A stretch of DNA of 64,000 nucleotides from Lytechinus variegatus (lineage: Eukaryota > Echinodermata > Echinoidea > Temnopleuroida > Toxopneustidae): assembly GCF_018143015.1 (NCBI RefSeq), contig NC_054740.1:9194140-9258139 (forward strand), written 5' to 3'. The first letter of the stretch is position 1; each line of letters begins with the position of its first letter. Under the pieces are notes generated by a model, which did not search any database, had not been told where the DNA came from, and saw only the letters and a program-made list of their open reading frames with translations. Position numbers and translations under genes: made by a program. Positions 14,479 through 61,020 of the stretch are shown piece after piece.

Positions 14479-15079
14479 CCGTAAGGGCACTAGTATTCAA
14501 CCCGTTTGGAGAGTTTCCTCAATATATAGAAACATAGAATTTACCTGAATTTCAGACCCGTCTTATTTCTAAGAGCAAATGCTGGTTATTTTTCCGTTAT
14601 TTTTTTCTTCAACCAGTCAACTGTGTGTGCGGGCGATCGAATTGTACAGCGATGGTTTTTTGCACTAGTATTCAACCCGTCTGCACTAGTATTCAACCTA
14701 GCGATGAAAGATGGTCCTGTCTCTCAATCTGCCCTTGTCCCATCCGACTATGGACTAGACCATTTGAGATGAGACCAAACAGGGAATTAATCAAAGCCAG
14801 ATACTTACATAGATCTAAATCTAATTTATAAACCCTTTTGAGATTTGCTATCTATCCTCACTAGGTTGAATACTAGTGCAATTCAGTGCAAAAGGCCATC
14901 GGCGCATAATTCGATCCTACGCGCATACAGTCGACATATTGATAAAGAAAATACCGACAACAGATTACCCTGGAAATAACAAAGGTATGAAATTAAGATA
15001 GTTTCCATATTTCTAAATATTTTTGGAAATATGTCAAAATCTTTGAATTATGCCGGGTTGAATACTAGTGCCCTTACGG
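14479..15079. mobile_element. 601-bp MITE with 26-bp TIRs, inserted in a LINE
   Basis: Left TIR 14479-14504 (CCGTAAGGGCACTAGTATTC...) and right TIR 15054-15079 are exact inverted copies. TATA flanks both ends, as a 4-bp or TA target duplication. The core ACTAGTATTCAACC recurs twice near 14663-14700 and inverted near 14864-14880. It has truncated the 3' end of the LINE reading frame at 15080. No transposase. Confidence 0.9.
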
Positions 15080-16517
15080 TATATAATATTTACATACAAA
15101 TGCAGACTAACATAGTCTGACATGTTGCACCTCTTGAATATATTTGCTGAGGTGCTGTCTACGACGTGAGGTAGGGAATTCCATAACCTGGCACTTTTGG
15201 CAGTGGATGGAAAGAAGGAATTTTTGTAACATTCCGTATTTGCAAATGGAATCATGAGTTTTTGAGAATGACCTCGAGATTTGAATGATGAGTGTTTCAG
15301 TTGTTGCTGGAGCTGGACGTCTACAAGATTATTAATGATGCGATACATTAGTAGAGTCTTGGCTTGGGCCCTACGCTCTTGAAGGGTTTGCCACTGTAGT
15401 TGTCGAAGCATAGCAGAAATCCTGCTTGTAGTTCGATAGTCGTGACAAACGTAGCGAGCGTACCTGTGTTGAATCATTTCAAGATTTCTGATTTTTGACT
15501 GTGTGAATGGGTCCCAGATCTCAGATGCATACTCCATTATTGGCCTCAGGAGCATCTTGTAACAAATGACCTTATTGTTTCTTGGACAGCTTGTGAGATT
15601 TCTTTGCAGAAAACATTTGGTATTATTTGCTTTCTTAAAATTCTTGGTAATTGAGTCTACATGGGCGTTCCAACTGAGATTGTTACTAAAGGTTATGCCG
15701 AGGTATTTGGCATTACCTTTTTCTTCCAGAGCTTGGCCGTGGATGAAGTACATGTTGTGTGGAAAGATTTTCTTCCTTGTAATGTGTAAAACCTGGCACT
15801 TTCCGGGATGGAATGTCATACCCCAGTCCCTCTCCCATTGCTGCAGGGCATCAAGATCACGCTGCAGATCTTCGGCGTCTTCTCGCGAACTGATGGGATG
15901 GTATAGGGCACAGTCGTCAGCAAAAAGACGAACTGAAGAGCCATTGGTCACATACTCTGGCAAGTCATTTATGTACAGAAGAAAGAGCAAAGGACCGACG
16001 ACACTCCCCTGCGGTACTGCTGAGAGGACAGGTGCTGGTTCTGATGTTGCTCCATCACCATAACAACTCGTTGACTACGTTGAGACAAAAAGTCAGCAAG
16101 CCAAAGATGTACCTCATTCCTATACCATAGTATCCAACCTTGTACAACAGTACCTTGTACAACGCCACAACTGGGCGTTGTGGCGCGCGCCTGTAATCCA
16201 AGCTGTGGGGAAGTTACAAATTGATGCAGAGGTTCGAGGTTCGAGCCCTGGTCACGTCTTTCCGATGGTGACGTTAAAGGTCGGTCCCAGACGTAAATAA
16301 TCATATCTGATTGATACACGTCTGACAAAACTCAAATACACACAGACAGTCTTTGATGTGGGACTTTGTCAAACGCCTTGGAAAAATCTAACAAGACTGC
16401 ATCAGTTTGCCCTTTCCTGCCGATTGTTGAAGCTATATCATCAACTACTTTAACTATCTGTGTTACACAGGATCTCCTTTTCCGGAAGCCATGTTGGGCA
16501 TCAGATAATATATGATG
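15080..16517 (-). pseudogene. Broken non-LTR retrotransposon (CR1/Jockey-like RT)
   Basis: Minus-strand reverse transcriptase in pieces. 16332-16517 encodes SDAQHGFRKRRSC and the motif-A block LLDFSKAFDKVPH. 15080-16060 encodes AVPQGSVVGPLLFLLYINDL, the catalytic FADD motif and the thumb/C-terminal region (PIMEYASEIWDP, FPSTAKSARLWNSLP). The element is dead: 5'-truncated, interrupted by a SINE-like insert at 16150-16335, shifted by single-base indels near 16060 and 16125, and cut at its 3' end by the MITE. No endonuclease domain remains. It lies in the first intron of CEP44. The clade call rests on motif appearance only. Confidence 0.85.
16150..16335 (+). mobile_element. SINE-like insert resembling the 7SL RNA Alu domain
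   Basis: A foreign segment splits the RT between motif A and the next block. Its 5' part reads GGGCGTTG then TGGCGCGCGCCTGTAATCC, close to the 5' domain of 7SL RNA as I remember it. A B-box-like GGTTCGAGCCC follows about 60 bp on, then a non-7SL tail (GTGACGTTAAAGGTCGGTCC). A target duplication was not defined with certainty. Confidence 0.5.
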
Positions 16518-19880: not shown

Positions 19881-22800
19881 ATGGCAACCGGTGATGTGAA
19901 AGGAAACATTAAGAGCTTACAGACTGAGCTGAAGCGTGCAAAATACCCGAAGGAATTAGACTACATCAGGTGCTGTATTATCTTTTCTATATGAAACTTT
20001 TATTAGTATCAGCCTACTGTATTCAATGAAATGTTGAGTTCTTAATGAGTACTAATGGTATTTGTTGATTTGACTCAGACTTGGATGTTAAGAAGCAATA
20101 ACCAGGATAAGGGGTGAACTTTCACTGTTTGTGTTGTGGACTATAATAGAAGGGGGGGGGCAAAACATGAAACTCATGAAGGGTGGGCTACAGGTGACCA
20201 CCCCCCCCCCCATTCTCCCCTTCTGCTTCTGCTATGCAGAATTAAAACCAAAATATTTTTTTGTTATAGTATTTTTTCATGCATAAGTATTGTTTACAAT
20301 GAAATTGCAATGTCTGTGTTTCCTATTTAATCCCCCAAACATTTTGCCATTGTTCCTTTCCTGCCACGAACCTCAAAATAATAAAAATGATATACATGTA
20401 TTTGTTTTAATGCTGTTTAATTTTTGAGAAAAATCATTCATTTCTTAAATGGATATTGTTATTCATGATCTGAATTCTGAACTTATTTTAGAATTTCAAA
20501 TACAAAGCCATATAATGGATGAAAGAAACAAAAATCCTTTAAGATAATGATCATATGTCTGGCAAAGGAATTTGATTAATTGGAAATTTAGTGCTTATCA
20601 TGTCAGTTTAAGCAGAGAACTGCATAGAAAAAAATGTGGTCATTGATGTTTCCTTTTTGTGTTGTGAATGTATTACAGTTGATATGCTTTGCTATAACAT
20701 TGTCGTTTTTTGTTTTAATAAGCCTGTTTGCCATAAAGTTATTCAGAGTTATGGATGTCTCTTCCTCAGGAACCTAGGAATTGGGTATCCCTTAAACCCG
20801 TTTTAGTTGAGTACACTGCAATATTTGGAATATAGTTTGCAGATATTTCTCTGAAAGTATTGTATTTGCAATATTTGAACGTGTAACAAAGCGGTTTGTC
20901 CATAAAATTCATAAATAAAAATTTTAACACGTATTAATAGAGTGGTTAATACACAATTTCTTGAAGTGCGATTAAGGATTGTGTAATTAACATTTAAGTA
21001 GGAATGGGTGATTTTACAATGTAGAAAAACATACAGTGCAAAATATATGGTATGTATTATTCATTTCTGAATATTTTGCGTTTATTGTTGCAGCCTTGCC
21101 AAAGGATCTCCAAAGGAATTCCTTCCCATCATGCATTTCATGCTCTGCGATTACTCCAGGCCAGTCAGTCAGTTGATTCTGGATAGGAAGATCGACCTTG
21201 CTGCTAAGAATGATCAGAAGTTCATGGAAGCAGTGTACAAGGTACTGTATGCAAACAGGGGAAGGAGGGGGCAGTCACTCTTCATTTTTTTCCCTTTTTA
21301 ATTTTTACAGTGGGAACGTGGTACATGTATGAACCTATACTTGGTACCACTCCTCATGTACATGTAGATACAGGGCTTGAATCAATCCAAGCCCATCAAA
21401 GGTCATGTTGTTAGATACCCCTCTTGATTGGCCTCAATACCTCTCTGACCTTGGAGATCTGTGGTACCCTTTTTTTTTAATTTCCCGCTTTAATTGTGCT
21501 GTATTGCTGTAATATAGAAATGTGCCCGATGGAAAGGAGGCCTAAAACTATTGAAATTTAAGGTCTGGGTTTGGTAGAGTGTCTATTTGGCAGAGGCATA
21601 TGCTATAGCCAGGATAACAACTGTAGAAAACCAATTCAACTATCATCCAATCTGGTTTGTGTTTCAAGCATCATGTAAGTTACAATGTACACACAACTTT
21701 AAGACATAGTTGGGGACTCTTCTTTCTTTGGTGCAAGTCTCAGTCAATTTGATAACATCTGAAATAAGATATTTTTAGATATTTTTTTTTTAAATAAGGA
21801 TTTGGTGCCTGTTCCTGAAATTTGTTATAATAACAAATTTGCAATTAAAATCTAAAACTACTGACATTGATTTGATACCTGGCAGTAAACTCATTATAAA
21901 ATTGTGCATTTGTTAAAACAAGTCAAGTATCTTATGTTTCCATCCTTAATGCTCCCTCCAAGGTTATTATTAACAAAATGAATGATATGAAATATGCTAA
22001 TATTTTGCATGAGTTATGGGATGTAATTAAAGAAAACATCTTTAATTGTAACATTCTTATTTTTTGTTACATTTCTATTTTGTTTGATGCAATAAAACAA
22101 GAATTGATATATAAAGTGCATGATGAAAACTATTGAAAACAGCATTTTATGTTTCATTTACAAAATTCAGTCCAATGAAGTGAAACTATAGTTATAATAA
22201 AAACCATTAATCAATGGTTTAATACACCCTGAATTTTTGTTTATCTTTGAATAGCATCACTGAACATAAGTTTGCTTCAATTTTTTTATGGTTGCATTTT
22301 GAGGTTTGATACTGAAATAGTGGTTTTTCAGTTCTAGGGCCCATTGCATAAAACTTACTATAATAGCAATAGTCATCCTATGGTAACTAACTAACTACCA
22401 TGGTAGCAACTAACAAGGCTCAACAGCCAATCAAAGTCAATGATTACAGGGAAGTTACCATTAAATGGTGAAGTTACCATAATGGTAACCTTTGTGCAAC
22501 TGGCCCAGTTCACCTATTGCATTGACTTTTCAAGTATATCTTGGGGTTAATTACACTTCTTATCAAATACCAGGTTAAAAGGTAATTGATTTGGAGGGCT
22601 GATGTTAAAAGAAAATTAAATTTTACAATTCGAATGTTCCAAATATAGCAGAGCAAAACCTCAACTTTTCTGAGAGCATGCATACCTGCAAGATGGTTAG
22701 AGATCCATTCATTTGGCAGGCAGTATCCATGAATCACCTTTGCATATAACTTGCCAAAATATGGACAATTTGAAATTCTTAAATTGTGTTAAGTATTGCA

Positions 22801-25800: not shown

Positions 25801-28800
25801 AAGGTTATAGTTTAAGTTCACTCTACCTACATATTTAAGACTGTGACATCCAAAATATTTAACTAGAGAGTCCGATCATTCTTCATCACAAGATCAATGT
25901 ACATGTAGATTGACCCCAAATTACCTTGAGTGATCTCTGGATTGGAAATCTACAAGTACATGTAGCATTCTCTGGGAAGCTTACCGTGTTCTGCCTGTAA
26001 TATCACAATTGAGGTCACTAAAACTCATAAAAACAACATGGAAGGCAAAGCTGTATAATTTACAAGGGTGGCTTGATAATTGTTCCTGTCTACATTTCAG
26101 GGGCCCGTTGCATAAAACTTTTTACCTGAGAAAACTCAGGTTGTTTTTACCGGAGTTTTTGCCCTGTGCTAAAGTCAATGGCGGAAATCAGACTAACCTT
26201 AGTTTTCAGTTTTTACCAGAGTTTTCTCAGGTAAAAAGTTTTATGCAACAGGCTTCAGGTTGTGATGCAGATTTTTGCCTTAGTGAGAATACAAATCATA
26301 ATCATTGGAGCAAATGAAATGAATGCACTCACAAAACCTTTTTAATTGAAGCGCAAGACAATTTGTTCTTAAGTCAAACCTAGTCCACCAGTGACCCAGA
26401 AGAATAAACTTAGAGTAGTTTCAGGTGGCATTAGAGGGAGGGAATAACAATGGGAGATCTGTGCATCAGACCCTATAAACAATGATTTAGCACAGGTTGA
26501 TGCACTGGTTTCTTTGGTTTATACTCCACCTTGTCTGCTTCTGGAAATGCTCTATTCTATATATTATGCACTTGAGACAAATATGTAAAAGGGTCTTCCC
26601 ATGAAGTTGGGGCACATATTGTGACATTTCAGCATAACTCAATACTAATTAAACATTTTTCATTTGTATAGTCTTGACATAAATTTTTGTATTAAGACTG
26701 TAAATTTGGGGCTACATGTGTTTAGCTTAATTCTTCATTAAGTTATTTAGTAAAACAGTGTACGTATAATGTTGTTTAATGGACATGGTTTCCATGTATT
26801 GGGATATTTACATCTGGTCTTAAAAGTCGAATTATTCCAATTAGACTGACCAAAACTTGAATCAATATGTACATTTACTTGTCAGGTAGCTAAATACGTC
26901 AGATTTCTTTATGCATAGTTACAAAAGTAAATTAAAAAATTGTCACAGTGTCCATGTAACATTGGGAAATGTCACATTTGGTGGACACCGAGTACATTTA
27001 GCATAGTGACAATTTTTTAATTTCCTTTTGAAAAATAAATTGAACTACATGTAAAAGGAAGTCTGAAGTATTTACATATAGAGAATGTGCATATTGTAAC
27101 AAGTGTTGGTCAACCAAATTGCCCTTTTTTTTTAGGACCTGGGGGCCCAGTTTCATAAAGAGTTACAGCTGTTGTAATCTGCCATCATGGCAAGTACCAT
27201 GTCAACAGGGCTCAGCAGCCAATCAAAATCAAGGTTACCATGATATTTGCCATAATGGCAAAGTTACAACAGTTGCAACTCTTTATGAAAGGGGCCCCAG
27301 ATGTAAATATCCCAATGCTACATGGACACTGGTCAGTGAAATGTATGCCATTTAATAAAGCCTACAAAAATAAAATATCTTAGTCTTGAGTTATGCTAAA
27401 ATGACCCAATTCATGCCCAAACTTCATGGAAAGACCCCAAAACATTTCCCCCTATTAATCTGTTCGCTGCTGGATTCGAATTTGAATATGTGTATAGTGA
27501 TAGTTCGTTGAGTGTCCCCCTTAGGACAAATGTTGTGTTTCAACAAACTTACTGATTATGGCATGAACTCTCTTGGGGTCCAGGGCCGGACGCTTGATGG
27601 CATTCTCACTGCCTTTGCCTGTTGCCTTGAAGCCAGTAACAGAGCTGGTACTGAGTTCTTTCATGTTGAACAGGAGCATGACTAATTTCCTGGTGTACTG
27701 GCTGAGTCCTTTGGTTCTCTGCGACAGTTTTAGCTGTTTCCTTGGTAACCAGATGCCTGAGCCTGCAACAAGCTCAACCAGCTGAAGATTGAAAATATGA
27801 TGAAAATTAGGAGATGATCTTGATGGTATGGTCATGAATTCACAATATTTTGCTTTAGCCCCAAGATATGGGAAGAGGGAGTTTACAGGGTGGTGGGAGG
27901 GGGGTAGCAGACTTCCAAATCTGTATTATGATTTTTATCTAGGGGTGTGTTTTTAGGATGGGGGATGCTGGAAGGGGAGCACTAGTTCATTGTTGCTTAT
28001 GGTAAGACATCTTGTCTTATTCTGATTCTGAGTTTATAGTTTTAAGTAAGCATTCACCACGAATTTATGGAAGCATAGAAGTGCCATCCAGATGTACAGA
28101 TAATCATCTTGTCATGTGATCATCCAGTAGAAAAGAAATGACCAGATGACAATATCTCTGATCCCATCATGTCTTCATCCTTTAGGAGAGATGATAAGAT
28201 GACAAGATTCCCAATGGTAGTGTCCTGTAAGCTCACATGGTGTAATTTCTGTAAATTTCTTGATTGTTTTGTTATATTCCTTATTTGTTAATTTCATTGT
28301 TTTGTTTTTTTAGATAGTAAAACATCTGTCAATTCAGCTTTTAAACTGCGATCAAATCTTGAATCATGAATCATGGTGTTAGGAGCTTGTAATGTGACCA
28401 TACGAGCTGATTTTTTTAATAAAGCAATTTAATACAAAGCAATCTCTTCTGAAGGATGTAGACATGAAGAGATGATTATTTGTACATCAAGAGGGCACTT
28501 CTAAGCTACATGTTCTTGTCTCTCACCTTATCCCCATCATGATCATCTTGAGCCGCACCCTTCATCGTAATAGGTTTCATGCGTTGTATTGATGGTGCCG
28601 AAATATTTGCTAGAGTACTATTGGTACTCATGGAAGGGCTTTGGCTCACCCCACTCCGTCCAATCCTGAGACGTTCAGTGATACCATCTGAAACATAGCT
28701 AGCCTGCCACTGAGGGGTCTTTATCTGCCTCTGTCTCACATTGTTCTTTCGCTGGTTGATCTGCGCCGAAGGCCTAGTGTACCCTCTGTTTAATTGGTTG

Positions 28801-37800: not shown

Positions 37801-40800
37801 AAAAATGTGGGTCAAATGCTATCCGATTATGAGTTATACATGTATGTGACACTTTGAGACTATTATGACTGTGAATAGGCAGTGAAATACAACTTATGTC
37901 AGGGCCCTCTTTCACAAAAAGTTGCTCTGACAGCAGCTCTTGATGGAATGTCAACTTCACTGGATGAACCAACCATACCGTTGCATAAAACTTTTGCCAT
38001 AAAAAAAGTCTGGCAAATTTTTGGCCAGAGTTTTTAGCTCATCTGGCCCAAAGGGCAAGATGAGCTTATGCCGTGGCGTCGGTCGTCTGTCGTCCGTCCA
38101 CAATTTCAAAATGCTACTACTTCGCCATTTTAAGTCGGATTTCAATTCTGTTTGCTTTATATGATAGCACTAGGTGGGGGATTCAAAACTTCTACACAGA
38201 ATTTTGAAATTTATGGAATATGCTAATTTATGCACATTTTTCAAAATTCACAAAATATGCTTCTTTATTTTTGGACTGATTTTGAATTTTTTGCTTCCAT
38301 CTGGTAGAGCTTCATGAGGTTCACCAAACTTCTACACAGAATTTTGAAATTTTGACCAGAACAATTTTTATGCTAATTTATGCAAATTTTGAAAAATTCA
38401 CATAAAATGCTTCTTCTTTATTTGTTGACCGATTTTGATTGTTTTTCTTCCATCTGGTAGAGCTTCATGAGGTTCACCAATCATCTACACAGAATTTTGA
38501 AATTTTGACTAGAACAATTTTTATGCTAATTTATGCGAAATCAATTTATGCATATTTTTAAAAATTCACATAAAATGCTTCATTTTCTTTATTTGTGGAC
38601 AGATTTTGAATTTTTTTCCTTCCACCTGTAGAGCCTCATGAGGTTCACCAAATTTCTAGACAGAATTTTGAAATTTTGAATAGAACAATTTTTATGCTAA
38701 TTTATGCGAAATCAATTTATGCATATTTTTAAAAATTCACATAAAATGCTTCTTTTTCTTTATTTGTGGACAGATTTTGATTTTTTTTCCTTCCACCTGT
38801 AGAGCCTCATGAGGTTCACCAAATTTCTAGACAGAATTTTGAAATTTTGAATAGAACAATTTTTATGCTAATTTATGCGAAATCAATTTATGCATATTTT
38901 TAAAAATTCACATAAAATGCTTCATTTTCTTTATTTGTGGACAGATTTTGAATTTTTTTCCTTCCACCTGTAGAACCTCATGAGGTTCACCAAATTTCTA
39001 GACAGAATTTTGAAATTTTGAATAGAACAATTTTTATGCTAATTTATGCTTATTAAAAATTCACATAAAATGCTTCTCCTCTATTTTTTGACCGATTTTT
39101 GAATTTTTTTGCTTCCATCTGGTAGAGCTTCATTAGGTCCACCAAACTTCTACACAGAATTTTGAAATTTTGACCAGAACAATTTTTATGCTAATTTATA
39201 CATATTTTTAAAAATTCACATTAAAATGCTTCTTTTTCTTTATTCGTGGTTCAATTTTGATTTTTTTTCTTCCACCTGTAGAGCCTCATGAGGTTCACCA
39301 AACTTCTACACAGAATTTTGAAATTTTGAATAGAACAATTCTTATGCTTATTTTATGCGAAATTAATTTTAATGCATATTATTAAAAATTAACATAAAAT
39401 GCTTCTTTATTTTTTGACTGATTTTGAATTTTTTGCTTCCATCTGGTAGAGCTTCATGAGGTTCACCAATCTTCTTCACAGAATTTTGAAATTTTGACTA
39501 GAACAATTTTGATGCTAATTTATGGGAAATTAATTCATTCATATTTTTAAAAATTCACATAAAATGCTTTTTCTTCTTTAATTGTTGACCGATTTTTACT
39601 TTTTTTCTTCTACCATCTTGTAGAACTTTATGAGGTTCACCAAACTTCTACACAGAATTACAAAAAAAAGTTTTTTCTTCTTTATTTGTTGATCAATTTC
39701 AATTTTGTTTGCTTTATATAATAGCTCGAGGTGGTGATACAAAATTTAAACATAGAATTTTGAAACTCATTAAATATGCTAATTTATTCATATATTTTCA
39801 AAACTCAAAAAAATTACTTATTTATTTGTTGATGACTTTGGTTATTTTTGTTCTATCTGAGAGCTACATTAGGTTCACCAAAGTTCTACACAGAGTTAAG
39901 AAGCTTGACTAGATAATTATTAATACCTAATTCATATGAAATTTATTCATAGATCACAAGAAAATTCTTCTATGTCATTTCTTCATCAATTTCAATTCTA
40001 TATCCTCAATTTATGTCACCAATAAAATTCACTACAGTGTCAACTGAAATGAAATTAAAATTGTGTTAGATTTTGTTGCGAGATGCCGGATGAGCTCCAC
40101 ATCATTGATGTGCTAGTACTATTATGTGTAATTTTCAATGGCATAATTTAGTTTGCCAGAGTTTTTTTATGGCAAAAAGTTTTATGTAACGGGTCTCAGG
40201 AAGCAGAATTTTCACTATTGTTATGATAGTTGACACTCCAGCAAGAGTTGCTATCATACCAACTGTTTATTAAATGGGGCTCAGGGTCCTGCTGCATAAA
40301 AGTTATCATTATAGTAACTTTGCCATCAAGTGGTAACTACCATGGTAACTATGCTCAACAGCCAATCAGAATCAAGGATTCCATTAAACATACTCATGGA
40401 TAGCAAAGTTACCATTTTGTGGAATGGGGCCCATGTGAACATGTCTATAGCCAGTCCAGTATGATTTGTGTTTTAAATGAGTAAACCTGAAATTCTTCTT
40501 GGTTTCTAGAAAGAATGATGATGATTTTTTTGTACACAGGTTCATCAGAAAGCATCGGTTCTAGACCTACCAGCAGGAAGGTAAGGGTTCTAGATCCAGA
40601 CGTTATCTTTACTGCCCATCGCGAGGATTTCTTGAACAGCACAGAAATAAGTGAGAGTGCTGAACACAAGCAATCAGTGAGCATCATTGTAGGTATGTTA
40701 CTCTGGTTTCCTTTATGCTTAAGTTTCACCATGTTTTTTTAACAAAATAGAACAAATTTTACATTTAGTTTCGATGAGGAAAAATCATTGTTAGAGGAGA

Positions 40801-46857: not shown

Positions 46858-47004
46858 GGGGCCTGTTTCATGAAGGAATTGCAACTATTGTAACTTAGCC
46901 ATTATGGCAACTACCATGGAAACCTTTATTCTGATTGGCTGCTGAACCCTGTTGCCATAATGGCAAAGTTACAACAGTTGTAACTCTTTATGAAACGGGC
47001 CCCA
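46858..47004. mobile_element. Palindromic GGGGCC-ended element
   Basis: GGGGCCTGTTTCATGAAGGA pairs with TTTATGAAACGGGCCCC. The arms are AACTATTGTAACTTAG and inverted. The centre is ATTCTGATTGGCTGCTGA, the complement of the shared CCAAT core. Confidence 0.85.
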
Positions 47005-48058
47005 GATTTAAGGAGAAAGAAAGCAGGTCTATGAAAGTTTGAGAACAAATTGGACAAGTAAAAATAATGTCATGAGCATTTGAATGTTGAGATCTTCCTT
47101 TTGGAAATATGACCACGATGTGTGACGTCACCCATGAAGAACTCTTCTTTGGAACCTGAAAAAAAAATTTCCCAAGAACAATTTTTTGATAATTCTAAAA
47201 CACATACAAATAGACATATTGAAACTGACAATGAGAGTGAAATATGTACGTAAATAATTGGGAAGTTGTTCATTTGACACCTAACATCTTTGTCGCATTG
47301 CCAAAGGGTCCTAGGATGTCTATAGAATTAGTGGTCAATTCTCAAATGCTCATAACTTTATTAATGTTTAATCAATTTTTCTCAAACCGTCCTTGATGGT
47401 GTCTTTGATATTCTGTTGTTTACCACTTTGAAAAGTCTAACAGAATTGTGTGGCCCGTACTATTTTGAATTAGGCCTATTCACTTTTACTATGCAACAGA
47501 TCCAGTATATTTCAGGGATGGGCAAAGAAAGAATGGTGATTGATCATTGGACAGAGTTCTACAATTCGGTGGATTCACAATATGGTGCTTCATCTATCAG
47601 TTCCAGCAGACAGGCAGAAATTCGCAATGCCTCATGGGAAAAAATCAAAATCTGTTGTGTGTGCTAGTCCTAAATTGCATAAATGCATGCAGTTATTCAG
47701 CGCTGGCTGACACGGCTCAACCAGTTTGCATAGGCTGTTAAAAGTGTCCAGGAAATGGAGAAAAACATTTGCCTGCATGTTTCTTTGCGAAATTAAAACT
47801 GTTTTAAGTGAATTGCTCCTCTGCTTTTGCCATGGTTTTCATTTTTGAAGCATCATAGTTACAATACAGTACACTAGCACTGTGTGTTGCCTGCACATGC
47901 ATGCGATGTTGACCCCGAAGTTAGAAATTTGGCCTATTTGCTGCAACTTATAGATGGCCCAGTATTTTGTGAATCCACTGAATTGATCACACACAATGGT
48001 CAATGCAATGTATCATTGAAACCAGCCCCTTGATCAATCGTCAAGTGTTATGTTAACA

Positions 48059-48198
48059 GGGCCCCGTTGCATAAAAGTTACCATTATGGTAACTTGCATG
48101 GAATCCTTGATTTTGATTGGCTGTTGATCAGTGTTACCATGGTAGTTATCACAGGAGGGCAAAGTTACAATAATAGTAACTTTTATGCAACAGGACCC
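48059..48198. mobile_element. Palindromic GGGCCC-ended element
   Basis: GGGCCCCGTTGCATAAAAGT pairs with ACTTTTATGCAACAGGACCC. The arms are TACCATTATGGTAACT and inverted. The centre is TTTTGATTGGCTGTTGATCA. Confidence 0.85.
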
Positions 48199-48339
48199 AG
48201 GGCAGTAAAGAGTAGAAAACTTCATCATAGCACAATTAACTGTCTCATCTATCAGGGATATTTTGTTGTCCCATCCAGAGGCATATCAAGCTGGATACAG
48301 GAGGCCATTTCACAAAGATTTAAGTGATTTAGATCTAAG

Positions 48340-49327
48340 ATTCACTGTTCATCAACACTTTTTCCTTGTCAATTTTTTTAGTCCAGTAGAAGGGTTCCAT
48401 CACTGACTAAATCCAAGAAGTTTATCTTCCGCTTAGGCATAAAACCGAGACCCGCCATGCCTCCGAGATTCAATTCTTCTCACAAACATTTTTTTTTAGT
48501 CCAATCGAAGGGTTTCTATCCCCTATTGAACTCTAGATATTTTATCTTCTCCTGGGGAGCATTTCATGAAAGGACTTGTCGGACGTTTTATCCAACAAGT
48601 CCCATTTTATCCGACAGTTACCATAGTAACAGTGCCTCTCAGCCAATCAGAATCAAGGAAAGATGTCCTATCTGACAACTTGTCAGACAAAAATGTTGAT
48701 GAAACAGTCCCCTGGTTTAGCATAGAGACTCAGCTCTTCACGATCAACATTAGACTCTTTTCCTGATCAACTTTCTTAGCCCAATAAAAGAGTTCAAATC
48801 CTAACAGAGTTCATCAAGTTTTCTCTTCTAGTTTGGCATAAAATTGATACCCAGCATGTCTCCAAGATTCAATGTTTATCAACTATTCTCCCCGAGGATT
48901 TTCTTGGTCCAAATGAATTGTTTCCATCACAGACTGAACCCAAGGACTTTAACCTTTTGGTTTTGCATAAAATTGAAACCCTTCACGCCTCCACGATTGA
49001 ATGTTCATCAACTCTTCTCCCAATCAATTTTCTTGATCTAATCGAAGGGTTTCAGCCACTGACTAAATTCAAGGGCTAACATCTTCTGGTTTGGCATAAA
49101 ACTGAGACCTGGCACACCTCAACGGTTCAACAATCATCAATTCTTCTCCCGAACAAGTTTCTTAGTCCAACTGAAGGGTTCCAACCCTAACCAAATTCCT
49201 GGGCTTTATCTTTAACCTTCAGGTTTGGCCTAAAATTGAGACCCGGCTCGCCTCCATGATTCAACTCTTCTCCCCATCAATTTTCCTAGTCCAATGGCAG
49301 GGTTCCTAGGCTTTAACCTGCTGGTCT
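48340..49327. repeat. ~130-bp tandem array derived from the CWF19L2 3' exon
   Basis: About seven diverged copies of a unit whose minus strand reproduces the end of the CWF19L2 reading frame. The unit near 49021-49065 reads, on the minus strand, LEFSQWLKPFD-stop-IKKID, beside the genuine [17 protein letters not shown]. The rest of each unit (TTTGGCATAAAACTGAGACC on the plus strand) is non-coding. The array directly follows the gene's stop codon. One unit is split by the palindromic element at 48550-48712. Confidence 0.8.
48550..48712. mobile_element. Palindromic element inserted in the tandem array
   Basis: GGGGAGCATTTCATGAAAGG pairs roughly with GTTGATGAAACAGTCCCC. The arms hold CTTGTCGGACG and inverted TGTCAGACA. 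The centre is CTCAGCCAATCAGAATCAAG. The array unit resumes on the far side. Confidence 0.75.
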
Positions 49328-52300
49328 TCAACTCTTCTCCCTATCAATTTTCTTAGTCCAATCAAATGGTTTCCACCATTGACTAAGTTCCAGGACTCGT
49401 TTACTCTGGTCCTGAAAGTTCTCCTTGGGCGGGTGTCTCCAGAGACGAGGTTCAACATCAAGAAGGCCTCCAATCACTTCCTACAAGAAAAAAAAAATGA
49501 AAGGATATTCTGGATTATAACACAAAGTAGCACCGATTTCTTGTTTTGTGGTGTATCAAGTATACTGTATTCAGTTGCATGGACATTGAAAGCTGATTGC
49601 AACAAAAATGTATCTGATATATATAGATTTATATATAATATACCTTTCCATCAAGAAAAAATTTCCTTTCAGTCAAACATAAAAGTTCAATATTAAATAA
49701 ACACCATATTCCGTGAGAAAATCAGTAACTGAATTTCAAAAAGTTGCAATTTAACAAGAACAAATCTGACTAAGCTAATCCAAGAAGGAAGTAACAGTAA
49801 GTAGGAAGCTTGCCTAACAAGCAATGCTTGCATTAAGAGGCAAACACCTGTGACTGAAGTTTGACATGAAGAATCTTATGTACAATAATTAACGAAGAGA
49901 CAAAATAAGCAAAGCGATAAAACAGAAAGGACATGAGAAACAGAGAACTAACTTAGAACAGCTTCAACCTTAATTAATGTCTTCTGTAGGTTTTCAGAAA
50001 TAAATATGTTTTTAAAGTCTCTTGTTTTAAGCTAGTTGGTAGCAAGAATATCGCAAGCTGATTACTATGTACATTTAATGCATATACCATTCAAGTACCA
50101 CCACACATGTTATAAAGGGGAATTCCATGTAAATAAAGTTTATTTGAATAATAAGAGAAAATATATATATATTTTTCATCATATGTAAACATTAAAAATA
50201 CATGACATTTTGATTTTTTTTAAAGGAAATATAACTTAGTCTTCTTTCTGGCAATTTGATATTTCAATTTATTGTTCAAACTTTACCATTTCCACAAAGG
50301 CTTCATAACAAGTTCCTTTCCTTGAACCTGCAGCTACCCATTAAATACAGATGATCACGAACAGTCCTTTTCAGGACTATCACATTGTAATATGCTTACC
50401 AAAACCCAATAAAATTTCTTATGTCATATTCAACTACAGAGAAGCACTGTAACTTAAGAGCAACTTAAACCTAATTACAGTTCGGTAGGAGCTCAAAAAT
50501 GATTTCCTCTTACAGTCTCTTGTTTTGAGCCAGTTAGTAGCAGAACAAAGGTAAAACTAAAGATACTGTAAATCTTTTCTCAATATAGATAATTTGAGAC
50601 AAACTAGACTAAATAACACCGATTCTCTTTGGCCAAAATACTCATCCCAGTTGTATAATACTCATATACACCACTACAGTCCCTTCTGCTCAAACAGTGT
50701 ACAAATCACTGTTGGATCGCATGCAACATACGACTGACAGTGTCTACCTGCCCAAGAGTGATAGTTACACATTTTACAGAAGGCTCTCACCTTTCCAAAG
50801 TAATGAGGGAAGACTAGTTCATCTTCAATGACATGGGCAAATCCGCCATCGAGACCAAAATCAACACTGAAGAAGGGAAACCCCCTAGGGACAGATCTAC
50901 GAATGTCTTTCTGTCTGGTGTCGATCAGCTTCTTGTTCTGTGTCCACTCTGACTCAGATTCCTGTATAGCTTTCTGTGAACAAACAATCATTGATATATA
51001 TCAGTACATAAATATCACATACCGCTGCTGAAAAATACATAACACTGAACGATTTGTGTCCAGTCTCATAACATTTCTATCAATAATTTACTAGCCATCA
51101 ACCTTTCCCAATCACTTTAAGATTTTTATCGTGCATAATTCAAACTAATAACCAGGGTTTAGTCACATGAAGCTTATCAATTGATAACGGAACAACTGTT
51201 TTGGATTATGAAATGATTTCTCTTTATCAAAAAAAAACCTCATACCATTCTACTTCATCAACACCATCATCATAATCATCAATATCATCATCACTATCAT
51301 TGTCAAAATCAGCATCATCATAACCCCCATCATCATCATCATCAACACCATCCTCCTCCCAATCCTCATCATCGTTATAATAATAACAATAATCAATATC
51401 ATCATCTTTACCACCATCATCATCATCATCACCACTATCATCACCACCACCATCATTATCATCATCAAAATCGTTACCTCCATAGCCATCCCCATCATCC
51501 CTTTTCTTCACAAAGATTTCCTAACGTACATGTACCTCCATTCTGCTTAATATAGTCTATTAATCATATCCAAAGGTACCTTTGTTGTGGGTCTGTCGTC
51601 ATGCTTTCGAGCATATTTAATTTTAATAGTAATGGGTTTTTTTTCCCAATAGACAATGGTGAATGAACAGATGCCAATCTGCATAAATATATTTGATTTG
51701 ACCACTTAGTGCTGCATGTTTGAAATTTACTTATATTTGTTTCACTCCTATCTATTATCGAGATGTATACTTCTTGCAAAATTATGTTGAATTACTTTGT
51801 GTCATTTATGAATGCAAAAGAAAATAAAACAAACAAGTGTATAAACATGGGTATGGATCTGACACGTTTCCTTGATTTCTGGTGGTTGAGCACTGTTACT
51901 ATGCTATGGTAACTGTCGGATAAAATGTCCTACAAGACCTTTTGTGAAATGCTCCCAAGGGGTCAGTTACACAAAGCTAAGTAATTGATGAAGGAACAAA
52001 TCTTTATGATTGATTACATTGACCACAATGTTTACAATCCATTGTGAAATTCAATGCTACGATCATGCTTACCTTGAAGTAGATAGGTGCCATTTCTCCG
52101 AGCTCTCTAGGGATGGTAAGACATTCAATACACATATGCCTCTGCTTCTTAGGATTCATACAGGTCTCAAGAAACACCACATCCATCTCATGGTCCTCAA
52201 ACATCCTTGTTAAACCCTTCCGGAACACCTGAGAAGGAAGAAAATACAAATAAACTTGCATAAATCAACATTCTATAAGTCTAATTTTTGCCAAAGTCTC

Positions 52301-55300
52301 AGAATATTTTTCAAAGACCTGGGGAAGGTTTTATCAATATTTTTGTCTGACAAGTTGTCATAGCTGTCAACTTTCCCTTCTTTTGACTGGCCGAGAAGCA
52401 CTGTTAACATGGTAACTGTCTGACAAAACCGGTCTTGTTAGATAAAACTTCTAATAAGTCCTTTCACGACATGTTGATCTTGGGGTTGATTTTTATGACT
52501 GATCATACACATTAGTCGATGCAATCAATCATAGAAACCAGTCCCCTGATCAAACACTACTATAACTTTGTAAATTCAATTTTTGATGAAATCTTCAGGG
52601 ATATGCTTGTTTATTTATTTTTTTTTGAAAATCGATTCCAATCAACTGTTCTTCAAGAGGGCTTAACCTTCAATTACTGGCCAGAATAAAAAAATGAGAC
52701 CTACTGACAGTAGACCAATGAGTTTAGCCACCATACTGTTGATATTACCAAGGAGATATCTCCTTGATATTACTGTATAGAGGGAGAGCTGAAAGCAAAA
52801 TTGTTTTTTTATTTTATTTTTGATGCTACTTCACAACCAATTGCCTAAATCTGCAACATTGGGTAGACTTAAACATTGCAGTTAAGAGGGAATTTTGGAG
52901 GCTCTTTTATTACTATCCAGGGCTCTTTGAGCACTTCAAGGATGATATTGACCGATCCTCTGTGTAATTTTATTTTCCAAAAGAGTTGGCACTTTAGATA
53001 TTCAACTGCTTTGTCAGCTAAAATAAAAAATGATGACATACTGATGTTAGATCTTATATTTTAAACGTATGTAACATTCAATTGATCAAAATAGATTCAG
53101 TAACGGTTGTACAGAAAATATATTCTTGTGCGGGAGTATTGTACAAAGAGCCACTAATACGTGTTTGGAACCAATGGGATTTCCTTTCATGCAAATATGT
53201 GTGGGATCCATACTAAAACTATACGCAAGGAACTGCCAACAGTAATCACCAGTGTGGCATATACTGTGAATGTTGATACATTAATTATTTTTCTAAGAAG
53301 TCTCCAGATAATGTGAGTTGAATACCAAATAATGTCTGACATGGGTGTAATTCAATGCACATTTACAGATTTTTAAAAAATCTCTTTTATGCAAATTTGT
53401 CAGATAAGAGTGAAACTAACCTGTATTTCAGCCCAGACATCCTCATCCAATGCTGTACTAGCTACCGTATGTTGCATTGGAACAATATAGCACTGTCCTT
53501 CGGAAATACACCTTGTCTGTGGCACACACAGATACACCTGAAAAGAACAATATTTGATTACAGGGGAATCCAGCCTTGGTCATAAAATGTTGTGTTGGAA
53601 AGGAGAAAAATAAATTTAACAGAATGGCAAAAATTTAAAAGAAATCAGACAAGCAATAAAAAAGTTATGGCTGATTAAAAATTGAAATCCCTAAGACTGT
53701 AGATTTCAAATTGCCAACTGTGTAAGTAAATTATGACAAGGGGCAAGGACAACTATCCCATAGGCCTTGTACTTCGCTAGGGAAGTAATCTAAATATAAC
53801 CCAGGTAGTATATTGTTTTATGTCCTCATGAAAGAAAAATATAATTTGAAGTAAAATTTTTGAAAAAATTACATTTTAGCCATTTCATGTATTAGAGTAC
53901 ATGGAAGAGTAGTCCTTGCCTTACATCACTATGGCATCACATGTGTGGACACTTTGAAGTCTCCATGGGTATAGTGATTAACAATACAACTTTTAACAAT
54001 GCATAACTTTCTTATTGTTTGCCTAATAGTGTTTAAATTTTCACCTATCAACTTGTCTGATTTTCCTTTTTCCGCTTAAGACAAGTTTTTATTTGGGTTG
54101 GATTCCTCTTTCACTTCACCTGCATTCCAACTGTTGCATCACCATGATATTAAATATGCAGTAATTATGTTTCCAAGTAGCTCAACAAGTATCTTCCTGA
54201 TGATCTTTGTAAGTTTGCATGGTGTAGTTTATAATGTGGAGAAGGTTTATGGTTCACCATGTGTAATATGAAGAAGGGAAGAAAATACAGGCAGAAAGAT
54301 TGAAATGGAAAGACGAGAAAGGATGAAAAGGGGAAAGTTGAAGTATTCTTTTCTTGTAAGTGAGTGAAGTCTTGAAAAGGACTATAAACCAGATGAGATG
54401 AGCTGAATATGGCTTGAGTAGCGATGCGTTTCGGGCAGGTTCACTGTCTGTCTTCAGGAGTCGAGTAATCTCTCTTCACTTCATCCTGCTACTACTCAAA
54501 CCATCGCTACTCAAGCCATATTCAACTCATCTCATCTGGTTGACAGTTCAAGTTTCAAAAGGCATATTTTTCAGCCTTTAAATTTCCCTCCGAATAGAAA
54601 CCTGAGAGCTGTTTGCTTCTATGACCGTGAATGTGGGATATTGAACACACCCTTTGATAAATTACCTTTAACCCGAGTGCTACAATCAAATGCTTCTTCA
54701 TCTCTTCACTTTCAAGACAGAAAGGACACTTGGACAGTCTGGACATGGTATGCTGATGGTCAGCGATGGCCTTTGACCTTTCACGTTCCTCCACCTTTGA
54801 CTTGGACTCGGCCTTTGCTGCTGATGAGACAAACATCTCATCCAGGGTGTTAAACTCCGAATCCAGCAGCGCTAGTTTCTGTTTGATAAAAACAATGGTT
54901 ATGGTTGTTTGAGGATGTTAACGCTTTTATTACATGTAATCTTCACAAGGGCTGGTTACGTTTGTAAAAGAGATGGGGGGTGGTTTCACAAAAGTTTAAA
55001 TCTGACTAAATTTTGCACAGTAGCGGGTGGTTTATATTGCATCACCACTTTGGTCATATCACACTCATGCGACATCCCCTGATGCATACTGATCTTTGAG
55101 ATAACTCATCAAATATCATATGCACTCAAGCATGACTTTTAGTTAATCTTGGCACTTTGTAAAAAAAAACACCCCTTATTTGGAATACACATGCTAAGCT
55201 GACTCCCAACCAATGCTTGACAAATTTTATTTTACTATACAGTGCATATGAATTAAAATTTAACACTTTGGAAAGGTACCGGTAATTGTAAAATTTACAA

Positions 55301-58300
55301 TATGGGATAATTTTTCACATAAATTCTTGGGCTTCGGTCTGTAAAACTGTAAAACATATGGGAAATAAATGATCACAAATCCAAGGAAATGCACATATGA
55401 TATAGAAAATCATTGAGAACAGAACAGTGCATACTGTTAACTTTTGTCATTCAATTGTATCTTCTATGAAATCCTTAATTTTTATATGCTGTTGATCACT
55501 GTTGCCATGGTAACTACCACTGGATTTTAATTTACCAAAATAGTAATGTGTATACCATGTGGTCCAGACCAGATATCATAGGAAGAAATATTCTAGATTG
55601 ATTACCTTGCTAGCTACTTTGTTGAGAAGTCTGTTATGATCATCAGAAGATCCCATCTTTTCTCTTCTCACCATTGTCTCCAAGTCAACATCATCATCAT
55701 CTGCAAAGTATCTCTCCCTCTCCCCTCCCTTGTCATGGGTTACAATCTGTGCAAAAGATAAAAAAATGAAAGGCTAGTAAACAGCATTCATAATCATGCT
55801 GCTCCAATTAGAGACAGTATGGCGTCTCTCCCCTCTGTAATACCTTGACACCTCAATAATTCCATAATGACGGGCTAAGGATCAGACATGAAACCGTTGT
55901 ACCTGAATTCTAAAAACCAGTTGACAATAGTTATGTACTTACATGGACGATTCAAAATTCAAAATCTTTGTAAGATAGCAATGTCTCTATACATAATTTC
56001 AAAAGCAATTTTTACATCATTATTCATCGATAACACACACAAAATAACATCTTGCAAAATGACATGTCTGTATTCATGTTTCAGAAAAGATACTTAAACA
56101 AAATAAGAATAAAAAATGGCTTTGCATTATACTTTACAAAATGCTATACAAATTTAACATAATACATAAAGAAGAACCAATACTAGAATGCAAATTTGCT
56201 GCTGTATCATGCTCATTAAAAGACCATGATTATCCTTGTTATATGTTGAACTAACAGTTGACAAACAATCAACAAACTGGGCTATATCTTGAAATTTGAT
56301 ACAAACTTACATTCTTTTTCTTCATCTTCTTTCCACCTGTAGGGGGAGCTGTTTGCTCGGCCAGCGGCCAGCTCTGTCCACTATGGTCAGTTCTGGTCAA
56401 GATGACTTCTTCTCTTTCTTCATGTGACCTCTTACCAGTCTTCTTTGAAGGAGGTTTCTCTTTTTCCTTACTCTCCAATTGTTTTGTCTTATGGGCAACC
56501 CTGGCCTGACGAGCATTCTCAATTTCTGCTTTCAGTTTCTGAGCAAGGGCCTGTTGAAAGCAATGTTTTTATTAATTTCTTTTTAACACTGATTGCAGAT
56601 ATTTATACAGTCATTTTTACAAAATACATTGAAGTATAGTTTCATGCATAACATAATGAATTTAGTAACTGGAATCAAAATAATATAATATATGTTTACA
56701 GATAATGTGAGAATGTTATTTATGTGCAAATCTATTTTTTTAATTCGCTTTTGCCATGGTTTTCCAATACCAGGCAGTAATGGAATATTAGAATAGTGAT
56801 GACAAAACAAAACAATGTAATTTGTTGACATGATTATTAGATTAAGGTACTCTATAATCCTGATCAATGCTTTTGCCATCAACATTGCTATGATGCCCCC
56901 TTTCTTCAGTATCATAATCATATCAATCATCAAGATTATTATCACCATTGTCATCATCATCATCATCCTCATCATCATCACCACCATCATCATTATCATC
57001 ATCATTACCATCACCATTATCATCATCATCCTCATCATCATCATCATCATCATCCAAATCATCATCACAACCACTTTCATCACCATCCCCATCATCATTA
57101 CCGCCACCACCATCATTATCATCGTCATCATCATCACAACCACCATCATCACCACCACCATCATTATCATCATCATCATCACAACCACCACCATCATCAT
57201 ACTTATCATCATTACCATCACCATTATCATCATCTTCATCATCACCATCATCATCATTTTCATCATCATCATCATCACAACCACCACCATCATCATCATT
57301 ATCATCCTTTTCATCATCATCATCATCCTTTTCATCATCATCATCATCACCATCACCGTCATCATCACCATCATCTTTCATCATACCTCATTGCCCATGA
57401 TCTCTGCTTTAACGAGTTTAGCTCCAAGCTGGTTCATCTCAATATCTGATAAAATCTTGACTGGGCTCGGACTCCTCTCTTTATCCTTGTCCCCTCCTCC
57501 AGCATCTCCTTCACTAGAATCAGGAGATGAGGATCCAGATGAACCTACATCATCACTCTTCTCTTCATCACTATCACTTCTTCTCCGAGACCTCTTAGAA
57601 GATGCAGATAATAACGAAGGTAGCTGTGATGCAGCGGATGAGGAGGAGTGGTCTTTGGATGATAAGTGCCTATCATCCTTCTCAGGTCCGTAGCTGCTTG
57701 ACTTCCGCCATCCTCCGGATGAGGAGGGGCTTGATCTAGCACCTTCCCTTTCATCATCAGGTCTCTTAAATCCCTGCTTCCTCCAACCCCCACTGGAGGA
57801 ACTTGATGCTGGTGGAGGTTTCATTCTGGAGGAGGAGGATCTTGAATGAGTTGAAGAATCATCTTCATCCTCTCCTGGTTTCTTAAACCCAGTCTTTCTC
57901 CAACTTGGTAAATCATCATTCCTGCTACGTTCCCTTGACGATGATCCTTTATCATACGATGAACGTGATCCATGCCTATCGTCTCTCCTACCACCTTCAT
58001 CCCCGGGCCTTTGGAATTTTGATCGCAAACTATCACCGTCATCTCCAGGCTTCTTGAAGGCTCTACTGGATATGTCTCTCCTGGAATCAGAGTCATACCT
58101 CTGGAATTTATCCCTAGATTCATATCTGTCCTCTCTATTCCTCCCTCCTCTGTCATCTTTCCTTCGATCCCTCTCATCATCTCTCCTTCCTCCTTCTCTT
58201 CGTCTGCCATCCCCATCATCATCCCTTCTCTTTCTCCATCCTGGTGGTGGTCCTCTAGAATGTCCACCGCTTGCTTCCACTGCCTCGGCAAGGAGTCTCT

Positions 58301-60131
58301 CATATTCTGCAACAGACTGTCAACATAACAAATTAAATACATTGGTAACATTGCTATTCAACTCAACATAATTATGTAATTGTCAATTGTTATCATTGCA
58401 CTTGTCTTGGTTCCTTTTCATCGGCATTTCATTTTCTATATTTGTCACAGCAGCATGATAGATAAAAGGAGAAGACCTTTGAAATCTCAAATATACTCAC
58501 TATCTTTACCATCACATATTTGACAAAAACTAGTATATCAGGAAATGTACATTGCTGTTGAAAACCAAACGTTTAACAGTTTTTTTTTCACAGCGTTTTT
58601 CCTTCAAAGTGATTAAAATCCTCATTTACACACTACAATATTCCCTACATTTATTTTTGATTTTTTAATTATATATTTTTTTTCTTATTCTTCCCTGCAC
58701 TTGAGAATCATCACTCAGTTACATATTCCTTATATACATACATTCTATGATATACACTAATTATTCTTTCTTTTTGTCAATTCTCACTTATGGCATGTGC
58801 TATCACGAATGTCTTAGGAAAAAGGTCGTTGACCCAAGAGCCTCTCACGATAATCAACTAATAGTGGTGCATGCATTACAAAACATTTATTTAATCTAAA
58901 ATAAAAATTGATAAAGAACTTACCCCCCACCTTTCAGCCACCACCTCATCTACTGGTCTACCACTCTCCCTGGCCTGCTCGACTGCCCTCTGGTAAGACT
59001 TCTTAAGCCAGCTGACACCTCCGTCAACCCCGTGTCCCACCTTCCTGGCTGGCTGAGGTGCTTGATGCCGAGAGGTGTCCCGCTCCTCTGGTAAACCTGT
59101 ACCCCCATCCTTCCAGTATGGATTCAGCTCTCTGGCAGACTGCACAATCAAAATATTACAGCAGATATTGTAATCAAGTTAAATCTATATCGATGGAAAA
59201 AATAAATCTATTCCTCTGGACTTACTTGTTTAAAGCGAAAATTGATTTTATTTTCTTAGGCATCTTATTAAAAGTGTAAGCCAATCTTATTTTTTCGTAG
59301 GCACCTTATTTTAAGTGTAAACCAATTCCATTTTCTCAGGCACTATATTCAAAGTGTAAGCCATCTATTTTCTTAGGTATCTTATTAAAAGTGTAAGCCA
59401 ACTCTGTTTTCTGAGGCAATTAATTTCAAGTGTAAGCCAATTTTTTTTTTTTTGGGGGGGCACCTTATTTAAAAGTGTAAGTCAAAATTATTTTCTTAGG
59501 AATCTTATTTAAAGTGTAAACAAATTCTATTTTTCAGGGCATCTTATTCAAAGTGCAAGCTGATTCTATTTTCTTAGGCACCTTATTAAAAGTGAAAGCC
59601 AATTTCTATTTTGTGGCACCTTATTTAAAGTGTAAGCCAACTTTATTTTCATAGGCACCTTGAGCGTAAGCGAAGTCAGCATTTGCCTGAAAATACATTT
59701 ACATTCTTAACCCAAGTCTCTTACAATGAACTTGAAACATCTCAACAATGAACAATTTCCATGATTTAACTTCTAATAATTTGATTTGACTTATTGTTTT
59801 CTTCTGCATTCATAACATTTGTATACAATACAATTTTTATTATGTAACAAACATAATATATCGGTAATCGAATTTGGTATGAATCATAAAGAAAAAAAAA
59901 TGTGTTCTGGGCCAATCAGATGCAGGGATTTCAGTAGCTTATAACAATAGTTACCAATAGTTACCACTTCTTGTTTCATGTAATGCTCCCTTGTATACTC
60001 ACATAATCAGCATCAGCAAGGTTCTGTGCCTTTTCTCTTTCCTTCTCTTTCTCTGCATTTTTCTTCTTGCGGATATCAGCCAAAGACGTTGCAGCAGTCA
60101 GGAACGGACTCTCTAACCAATTTCCTTCCCC
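49328..60131 (-). CDS. CWF19L2: CWF19-like protein 2 (C-terminal 825 codons)
   Basis: Ten minus-strand exons, every junction in phase 0: 60003-60131, 58924-59139, 57387-58316, 56311-56550, 55606-55746, 54666-54878, 53421-53537, 52073-52228, 50791-50973 and 49328-49480 (stop at 49328). Recognition blocks: [16 protein letters not shown]; a 310-codon Arg/Asp/Ser-rich exon that replaces the less charged vertebrate linker and ends [43 protein letters not shown]. The CwfJ C-terminal domain 1 follows, with [19 protein letters not shown] and the HIT-like [11 protein letters not shown]. Domain 2 has [20 protein letters not shown] and [13 protein letters not shown]. Family knowledge: a nuclear spliceosome-associated cofactor of lariat debranching. 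The first coding exons (Lys-rich N-terminus) are not visible and probably lie beyond 64000. The end of the coding sequence has been copied into a downstream tandem array. Confidence 0.94.
51245..51498. repeat. (ATC)n microsatellite, GAT in CWF19L2 sense
   Basis: About 250 bp of ATC/CATCAT triplets with interruptions, about 270 bp upstream of the exon at 50791-50973 in transcript orientation. The frames over it are poly-Asp or poly-Met artefacts. Confidence 0.95.
51890..52465. mobile_element. Fragments of the GTCTGACAAGTTGTC-arm palindromes
   Basis: 51890-51960 (GTTACTATGCTATGGTAACT, GTCGGATAAAATGTCC) and 52325-52465 (TTTGTCTGACAAGTTGTCAT, then a GACTGGCCGAGAAGCACTG centre and mirrored TGTCTGACAAAACC) match the 48.55-kb copy. 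The CWF19L2 exon 52073-52228 lies between them. Confidence 0.5.
53562..54112. mobile_element. Diverged family-A foldback element
   Basis: GGGGAATCCAGCC at the left pairs with GGTTGGATTCCTCTTT at the right. Internal AAATCAGACAAGC and TCAACTTGTCTGATTTTC match the family-A layout. It lies in the CWF19L2 intron upstream of the HIT-like exon. Confidence 0.5.
54389..54539. repeat. 38-bp inverted repeat, 75-bp loop
   Basis: Arms 54389-54426 and 54502-54539 differ at one base (CCAGATGAGATGAG(C/T)TGAA, then TATGGCTTGAGTAGCGATG). Located in a CWF19L2 intron, 127 bp from the exon 54666-54878. It could form a stable stem in the pre-mRNA. Confidence 0.85.
56935..57383. repeat. (ATC)n microsatellite touching a CWF19L2 splice donor
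   Basis: About 450 bp of ATC-type triplets. In transcript orientation GAT-like repeats start about four bases into the intron, right after GAG-GTATGA, the donor of exon 57387-58316. Long frames on either strand here are repeat artefacts. Confidence 0.95.
59255..59665. repeat. Minisatellite, ~35-bp unit, about 12 copies
   Basis: Diverged direct copies of ATTTTCTTAGGCACCTTATT plus AAAAGTGTAAGCCA. It lies in the CWF19L2 intron between the exons at 58924-59139 and 60003-60131, starting 116 bp from the former. Confidence 0.9.
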
Positions 60132-60401: not shown

Positions 60402-61020
60402 GCAGAGATTTCCTTGTGAGTGCTCTACTAGCTGCATTTCTTCTACAATCATCTTCAAATGTAGAAATAAAGGTCCATAATGGTAAGGCAAAGCCGCCTA
60501 TTGATTTTAGTGCGGGCAGAGATATCGTTGCCCTGGTAACAAGTTTTTGTGGAATAGCACAGATGTCCTTGTGAGTGTTCTACTAGATGCATTTCTTTTC
60601 CGATCATCTTCAAATGTGGCATGAAGGTCCATTATGGTAAAGCAAAGCAGCCTATTGAGTTTGTTGTGGGCAGAGACATCGTTGCCATGGTAACAAGAGT
60701 TTATGAAATAATAGCAAAGATACCCTTGTGACACTCTACCAGCTGCATTTCTTTTCCGATCATTTTCAAATGTAGCATGAAGGTCCAAAATCGCTTATTG
60801 ATTTTGATGTGGGCGGAGACATTGTTGCCATGGTAACAAGAGTTTTTTGTGGAAATAGCAGAGATTTCCTTGTGAGTGCTCTACTGGCTGCATTTCTTCT
60901 CCAATTATCTTCAAATTTGTCATGAAGGTCCATTATGGTAAAGCAAAGCCGCCTAATGATTTTGGAGTGGGTGAAGACATGGTTGCCATGGAAACCATAT
61001 CTTTGGTAAAACCTGTAACT
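60402..61020. repeat. ~155-bp tandem repeat, four copies
   Basis: Copies recognised by TCCTTGTGAGTGCTCTACTA and GTTGCCATGGTAACAAG; the GCTGCATTTCTT-type block recurs near 60430, 60587, 60745 and 60890. It lies in the CWF19L2 intron 5' of exon 60003-60131. The open frames across it are repeat artefacts. Confidence 0.85.

Follow-up and report, generated by a model that had tools for sequence, protein, structure and literature searches.

In variable-number tandem repeats of 3' untranslated regions, such as that of SLC6A3/DAT1, the repeated units follow closely on a coding region, and the array described here likewise stands just 3' of the coding region of the CWF19L2 gene. We know of no VNTR of the SLC6A3/DAT1 type whose units are copies of a coding end. 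A route by which minisatellites may arise was put forward by Haber and Louis (1998) and is described in PMC6947457, whereby a unique stretch lying between short repeats is duplicated. As far as the model is set out in that description, the present locus resembles it in the duplication of a stretch by slippage or unequal crossing-over, followed by the formation of a local array; it differs in that its unit combines a recognisable coding end, a stop and a probable flank, in that the array is old and degenerate, and in that the flanking short repeats of the model are not among the features recognised here. Internal tandem repeats also occur in the transcripts of human segmental-duplication genes, where, as outlined in PMC2812944, a class of units longer than 60 bp (63-228 bp) occurs in coding exons, 13 of 53 exon-located modifications fall under UTRs, and the repeats, half of which lie in coding sequence, vary between paralogues. 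The CWF19L2 array shares with these repeats, as outlined there, the tandem units and the comparable size class above 60 bp, yet it stands 3' of the stop codon and in a decayed state. No published report of this array was found in a search of titles and abstract openings, with most subscription journals outside its range. This kind of repeat birth is real but ordinary, and the locus is unusual mainly for its still recognisable source.

The window, that is, the whole stretch of 64,000 nt analysed (contig C1:9194140-9258139 of an 870-Mb, 33-contig assembly), holds the CWF19L2 gene in its right part, on the minus strand, with the following recognised portions:

54555-54917, minus strand: open stretch with CwfJ_C_1 (Pfam match)
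50674-51000, minus strand: open stretch with CwfJ_C_2 (Pfam match)
49328-49480, minus strand: last CWF19L2 coding exon, comprising the end of CwfJ_C_2 and the stop (Pfam and PDB chain match, alignment)

The last exon extends from its first base at 49480 to the end of the stop at 49328, a length of 153, with the translation EVIGG...[21 protein letters not shown]. Taken together with the end of the preceding exon, it matches CwfJ_C_2 in Pfam (E=4.6e-26) and, in the PDB, 6id0_U, a chain named CWF19-like protein 2 (E=1.1e-36). A C-terminal motif is common to four CWF19-type PDB chains, reading YDFTK in 6id0_U, VDWTK in 8ro1_L2, FDWTR in 9l5r_U and FDWTK in 3jb9_c; the organisms of these homologues we take to be human, a nematode and fungi including S. 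pombe. An 86-aa C-terminal query gave three matches in the assembly at E<=1, all of them at the CWF19L2 locus and one of them in the array (unit 3, E=0.197), and no other CWF19L2 gene was found with this query at that threshold. A 474-bp ATC trinucleotide array (56911-57384) ends at the 3' edge of a long minus-strand open stretch (57381-58319), which had no match in Pfam and is taken, by its position, to be CWF19L2 coding sequence.

Downstream of the CWF19L2 stop, seven tandem units, mostly of ~129 bp, occupy 48352-49326 on the minus strand. Each was recognised by repeat spacing, a unit profile and BLASTN, and two of them by assembly search as well:

49260-49326, minus strand: unit 1, truncated, 67 bp
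49136-49259, minus strand: unit 2, 124 bp
49007-49135, minus strand: unit 3, 129 bp (also by assembly search)
48878-49006, minus strand: unit 4, 129 bp
48750-48877, minus strand: unit 5, 128 bp
48469-48749, minus strand: unit 6, split by an insert
48550-48713, no strand assigned: MITE-like insertion in unit 6, an inverted repeat with approximate boundaries set by eye
48352-48468, minus strand: unit 7, 117 bp, the last full unit (also by assembly search)
48334-48351, minus strand: short remnant that looks like the beginning of another unit (within copy 48334-48365 of repeat family D6)

A repeat search recovered a 45-nt block in eight copies, that of the exon included, whose spacing, moving away from the exon, is 67, 124, 129, 129, 128, 281 and 117 bp. 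The spacing of 281 bp is due to the MITE-like insert which splits unit 6, the 5' piece of which (48711-48744) gives a weak profile match (E=0.0054). TRF reports a period of 129 and 3.4 copies in the best-kept part of the array. With head-to-tail units of tens to somewhat over 100 bp, found at one locus, the array is a minisatellite, or local tandem repeat. An earlier note on this DNA had described about seven units of ~130 bp, and its count of seven stands; the uniform size does not, given the truncation of unit 1 and the splitting of unit 6, and only part of each unit derives from the exon. The term "satellite", also used there, overstates what is one short, decayed array.

The homology between exon and array is clear. 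Their alignment scores 92, a value reached by none of 300 dinucleotide-preserving shuffles (maximum 36); a BLASTN search of the window with the exon as query matches all seven units (E 2.4e-15 to 1.41e-5), and a seven-unit profile built without the exon recovers it (E=1.2e-14). The significant unit-exon alignment on which the earlier note had made its reading depend is thereby in hand, and its central claim, that the coding end of CWF19L2 is tandemly multiplied just after the gene, is borne out. All nine profile matches in the window at E<=10 fall within 48358-49398, and no further copy of the unit was found elsewhere in the window at this threshold. Unit 3 is the best match to the exon (83% over a ~70-nt block), and the reading LEFSQWLKPFD*IKKID, noticed earlier in one unit, is indeed present within 49007-49077. 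The exon-derived part amounts to ~80 of the ~129 bp of each full unit, corresponding to the last ~27 codons and the stop (source 49328 to about 49410), with ~70-80 nt confidently assigned and the breakpoints approximate. The units are therefore products of partial gene duplication, homologous to their parent exon, for that part only. The other ~50 bp are probably old 3' flank; this half has no traceable origin because what now flanks the exon on its 3' side is the array itself, beginning with the truncated unit 1.

Very probably, then, the array is an old local minisatellite which was born by partial tandem duplication of the gene's end and which needs no function. A first partial tandem duplication would have copied the last ~27 codons and the stop of CWF19L2, along with ~50 bp of what was then its 3' flank, and more rounds of slippage or unequal exchange would have raised the number to seven copies downstream of the stop. 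The protein would have remained undisturbed because the copies lie behind the original stop. The copies would then have decayed, gathering indels and stops and later receiving a MITE-like insertion, leaving an array placed downstream of CWF19L2 or within its 3'UTR. Since the source coding end still adjoins the array, it can be said here in which direction a minisatellite arose and decayed, and a conserved exon that has stayed under constraint can be set beside its own degenerate copies. For CWF19L2 itself the array leaves the present view as it was.

The decay is extensive. Units differ from one another by 19-44% and from the exon by 24-37%, and the multiple alignment shows that they carry indels. 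Differences between exon and units are spread over the codon positions as 47/181, 37/184 and 47/183, with no excess at the third position, and stops occur in all three frames in five of the six units counted (the split unit 6 was left out, and the truncated unit 1 has one stop-free frame). Nowhere in the array does a frame stay open for more than 40 codons. By the lack of codon-position bias and the stops in all frames of those five units, the copies show no coding constraint, and the units look non-coding. Reading past the stop of the gene adds only four in-frame residues, RPAG, before another stop, and the read-through peptides suggested in the earlier note were rejected on this ground and on that of the interrupted frames.

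Conservation within the unit is nevertheless uneven, contrary to what strict neutrality would predict. Over the last ~43 nt the sequence has changed less (exon-unit identity 67-86%, unit-unit mean 69.7%) than in the rest of the exon-derived part (49-68%, mean 62.3%) or in the flank-derived part (unit-unit mean 64.9%). In unit 1 the last 34-36 bp are ~94% identical to the exon end by BLASTN, yet among the other 26 columns aligned with the exon the two agree in about 11 only, a count obtained by subtraction from the multiple alignment. Weak constraint, an effect of alignment anchoring, or sequence exchange with the exon at a later time could account for the better-kept ~43 nt and the ~94% end of unit 1. 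Because of the contrast within unit 1, an extended reading may be considered, whereby the array would be transcribed in the CWF19L2 3'UTR and would have undergone gene conversion with the exon end, so that the C-terminus would be partly shaped by decayed copies while other units would keep older exon states. This reading is unlikely.

Neither AATAAA nor ATTAAA occurs on the minus strand between the stop and 47367/47357, and therefore a long CWF19L2 3'UTR running through the array is possible, which is as far as the 3'UTR variants suggested in the earlier note find support. As RNA, the stretch 48340-49330 folds better than all of the 20 shuffles compared with it (z -3.48). These observations, along with the better-kept last ~43 nt, speak for a functional 3'UTR element, which might act by its RNA structure, as repeated binding sites or by a control of CWF19L2 that depends on copy number. 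Yet the units differ by the 19-44% given above and carry indels, the stretch that was folded contains the inverted-repeat insert, and variant poly(A) signals, such as GATAAA at 49205 and others beyond it on the minus strand, could stop the transcript early. A functional element is accordingly judged quite improbable, and the old minisatellite that needs no function is preferred.

A further possibility is that almost all of the last exon was copied into each unit, the units being decayed alternative terminal exons. The unit length of ~129 is near the 153 of the exon, and the start of unit 3 matches an upstream exon stretch at 12 of 13 positions. For the 5' part of the exon, however, 138 of 300 shuffles align with the array as well. 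When the 5' parts of the units were aligned locally with the exon, window controls out of 3000 did as well in 178 cases for unit 3, 388 for unit 6, 515 for unit 5, 955 for unit 7, 1275 for unit 2, 2262 for unit 4 and 2633 for the consensus, the last drawn from five units and poor at its first bases. Against 2000 shuffles the corresponding counts were 86 for unit 5, 103 for unit 3, 197 for unit 6, 850 for unit 7, 960 for unit 2, 1009 for unit 4 and 1628 for the consensus, and semi-global alignment gave counts out of 2000 ranging from 115 (unit 2, the lowest) to 1610 (consensus). A few of these controls are marginal (units 5 and 3, and unit 2 in the semi-global form) and none is convincing, and by these alignments the 5' halves do not appear convincingly exon-like. 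As most of their alignments fail to beat the controls and the best are marginal, and as the stop-free stretches of the array are short, an origin from the whole exon was rejected as very unlikely. The unit is most simply taken as the coding end of the gene plus ~50 bp of what used to be its 3' flank.

The direction of copying, from gene to array, is supported by several lines of evidence. The C-terminal motif is present in four CWF19-type PDB chains and is therefore older than the array, and the earlier claim that the array was copied from the gene segment is upheld by this motif and by the occurrence of the unit at one locus only. The exon has a Leu codon (CTT) where units 2, 3, 4, 6 and 7 have a Phe codon (TTT or TTC) and unit 5 has CTC; unit 1, which reads GTT by pairwise comparison, falls in a gap of the multiple alignment at that codon and was for this reason not counted. 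Phe stands at this column in three of the four homologues, the Phe of 3jb9 lying one column off, next to a gap. Thus the units seem to retain an older state of the exon codon, as far as these alignments indicate. Units nearer to the exon resemble it more (Spearman 0.79; one-sided permutation test, 121 of 5040 orders at least as extreme).

Searches of the assembly (869,567,369 bases, 33 contigs) placed every match at the CWF19L2 locus, namely 2/2 for the array, 2/2 for unit 3, 1/1 for unit 7 and 6/6 for the unit consensus. The searches covered fairly similar copies and skipped very common words; units 6 and 7 escaped the search with the consensus, and the neighbours of unit 3, at about 75%, escaped the search with unit 3. 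Within this sensitivity, which very diverged copies could escape, the unit is not a satellite dispersed over many loci in the 870-Mb assembly, the finding by which the earlier note would have been overturned. By contrast, an unrelated 154-bp tandem array at 60402-60995, upstream of the recognised CWF19L2 stretches, is a dispersed repeat, with at least 66 matches, itself included, on 12 contigs (376 candidates, 40 of them scored). That the array was a pre-existing repeat captured as the gene's end, the gene having copied the array, would suit the non-exon half carried by the units, as by an independent repeat, but it is scarcely credible, being largely refuted by the homology of the exon motif to four CWF19-type proteins and opposed also by the restriction of the unit to the CWF19L2 locus in these searches and by the five units which show the codon state of three of the four homologues.

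The MITE-like insert in unit 6 has a 79% copy at 52318-52473 and is abundant in the assembly. Out of 2502 first-look candidates from the assembly search with it, 40 were scored; among the 42 matches listed, the 41 besides the query are 89-98% identical, 40 of these 41 at 93-98%. The array is apparently older than this insertion, judging from the higher identity among the relatives of the insert, with the best-scored relatives forming a biased sample. Another inverted-repeat element lies nearby at 48059-48198, with 37-nt arms that are 89% complementary; elsewhere in the window it has relatives at 40284-40442, 27143-27261, 46899-47005, 22344-22469 and 55454-55546. The window contains in addition a long tandem array of 171/342 bp (38375-39659), with 95% between-unit matches in the part 38375-39049, a reverse transcriptase fragment at 15034-16074 (RVT_1, 3.6e-16) and an open frame with a BEN domain at 27521-27925 (7.3e-06).
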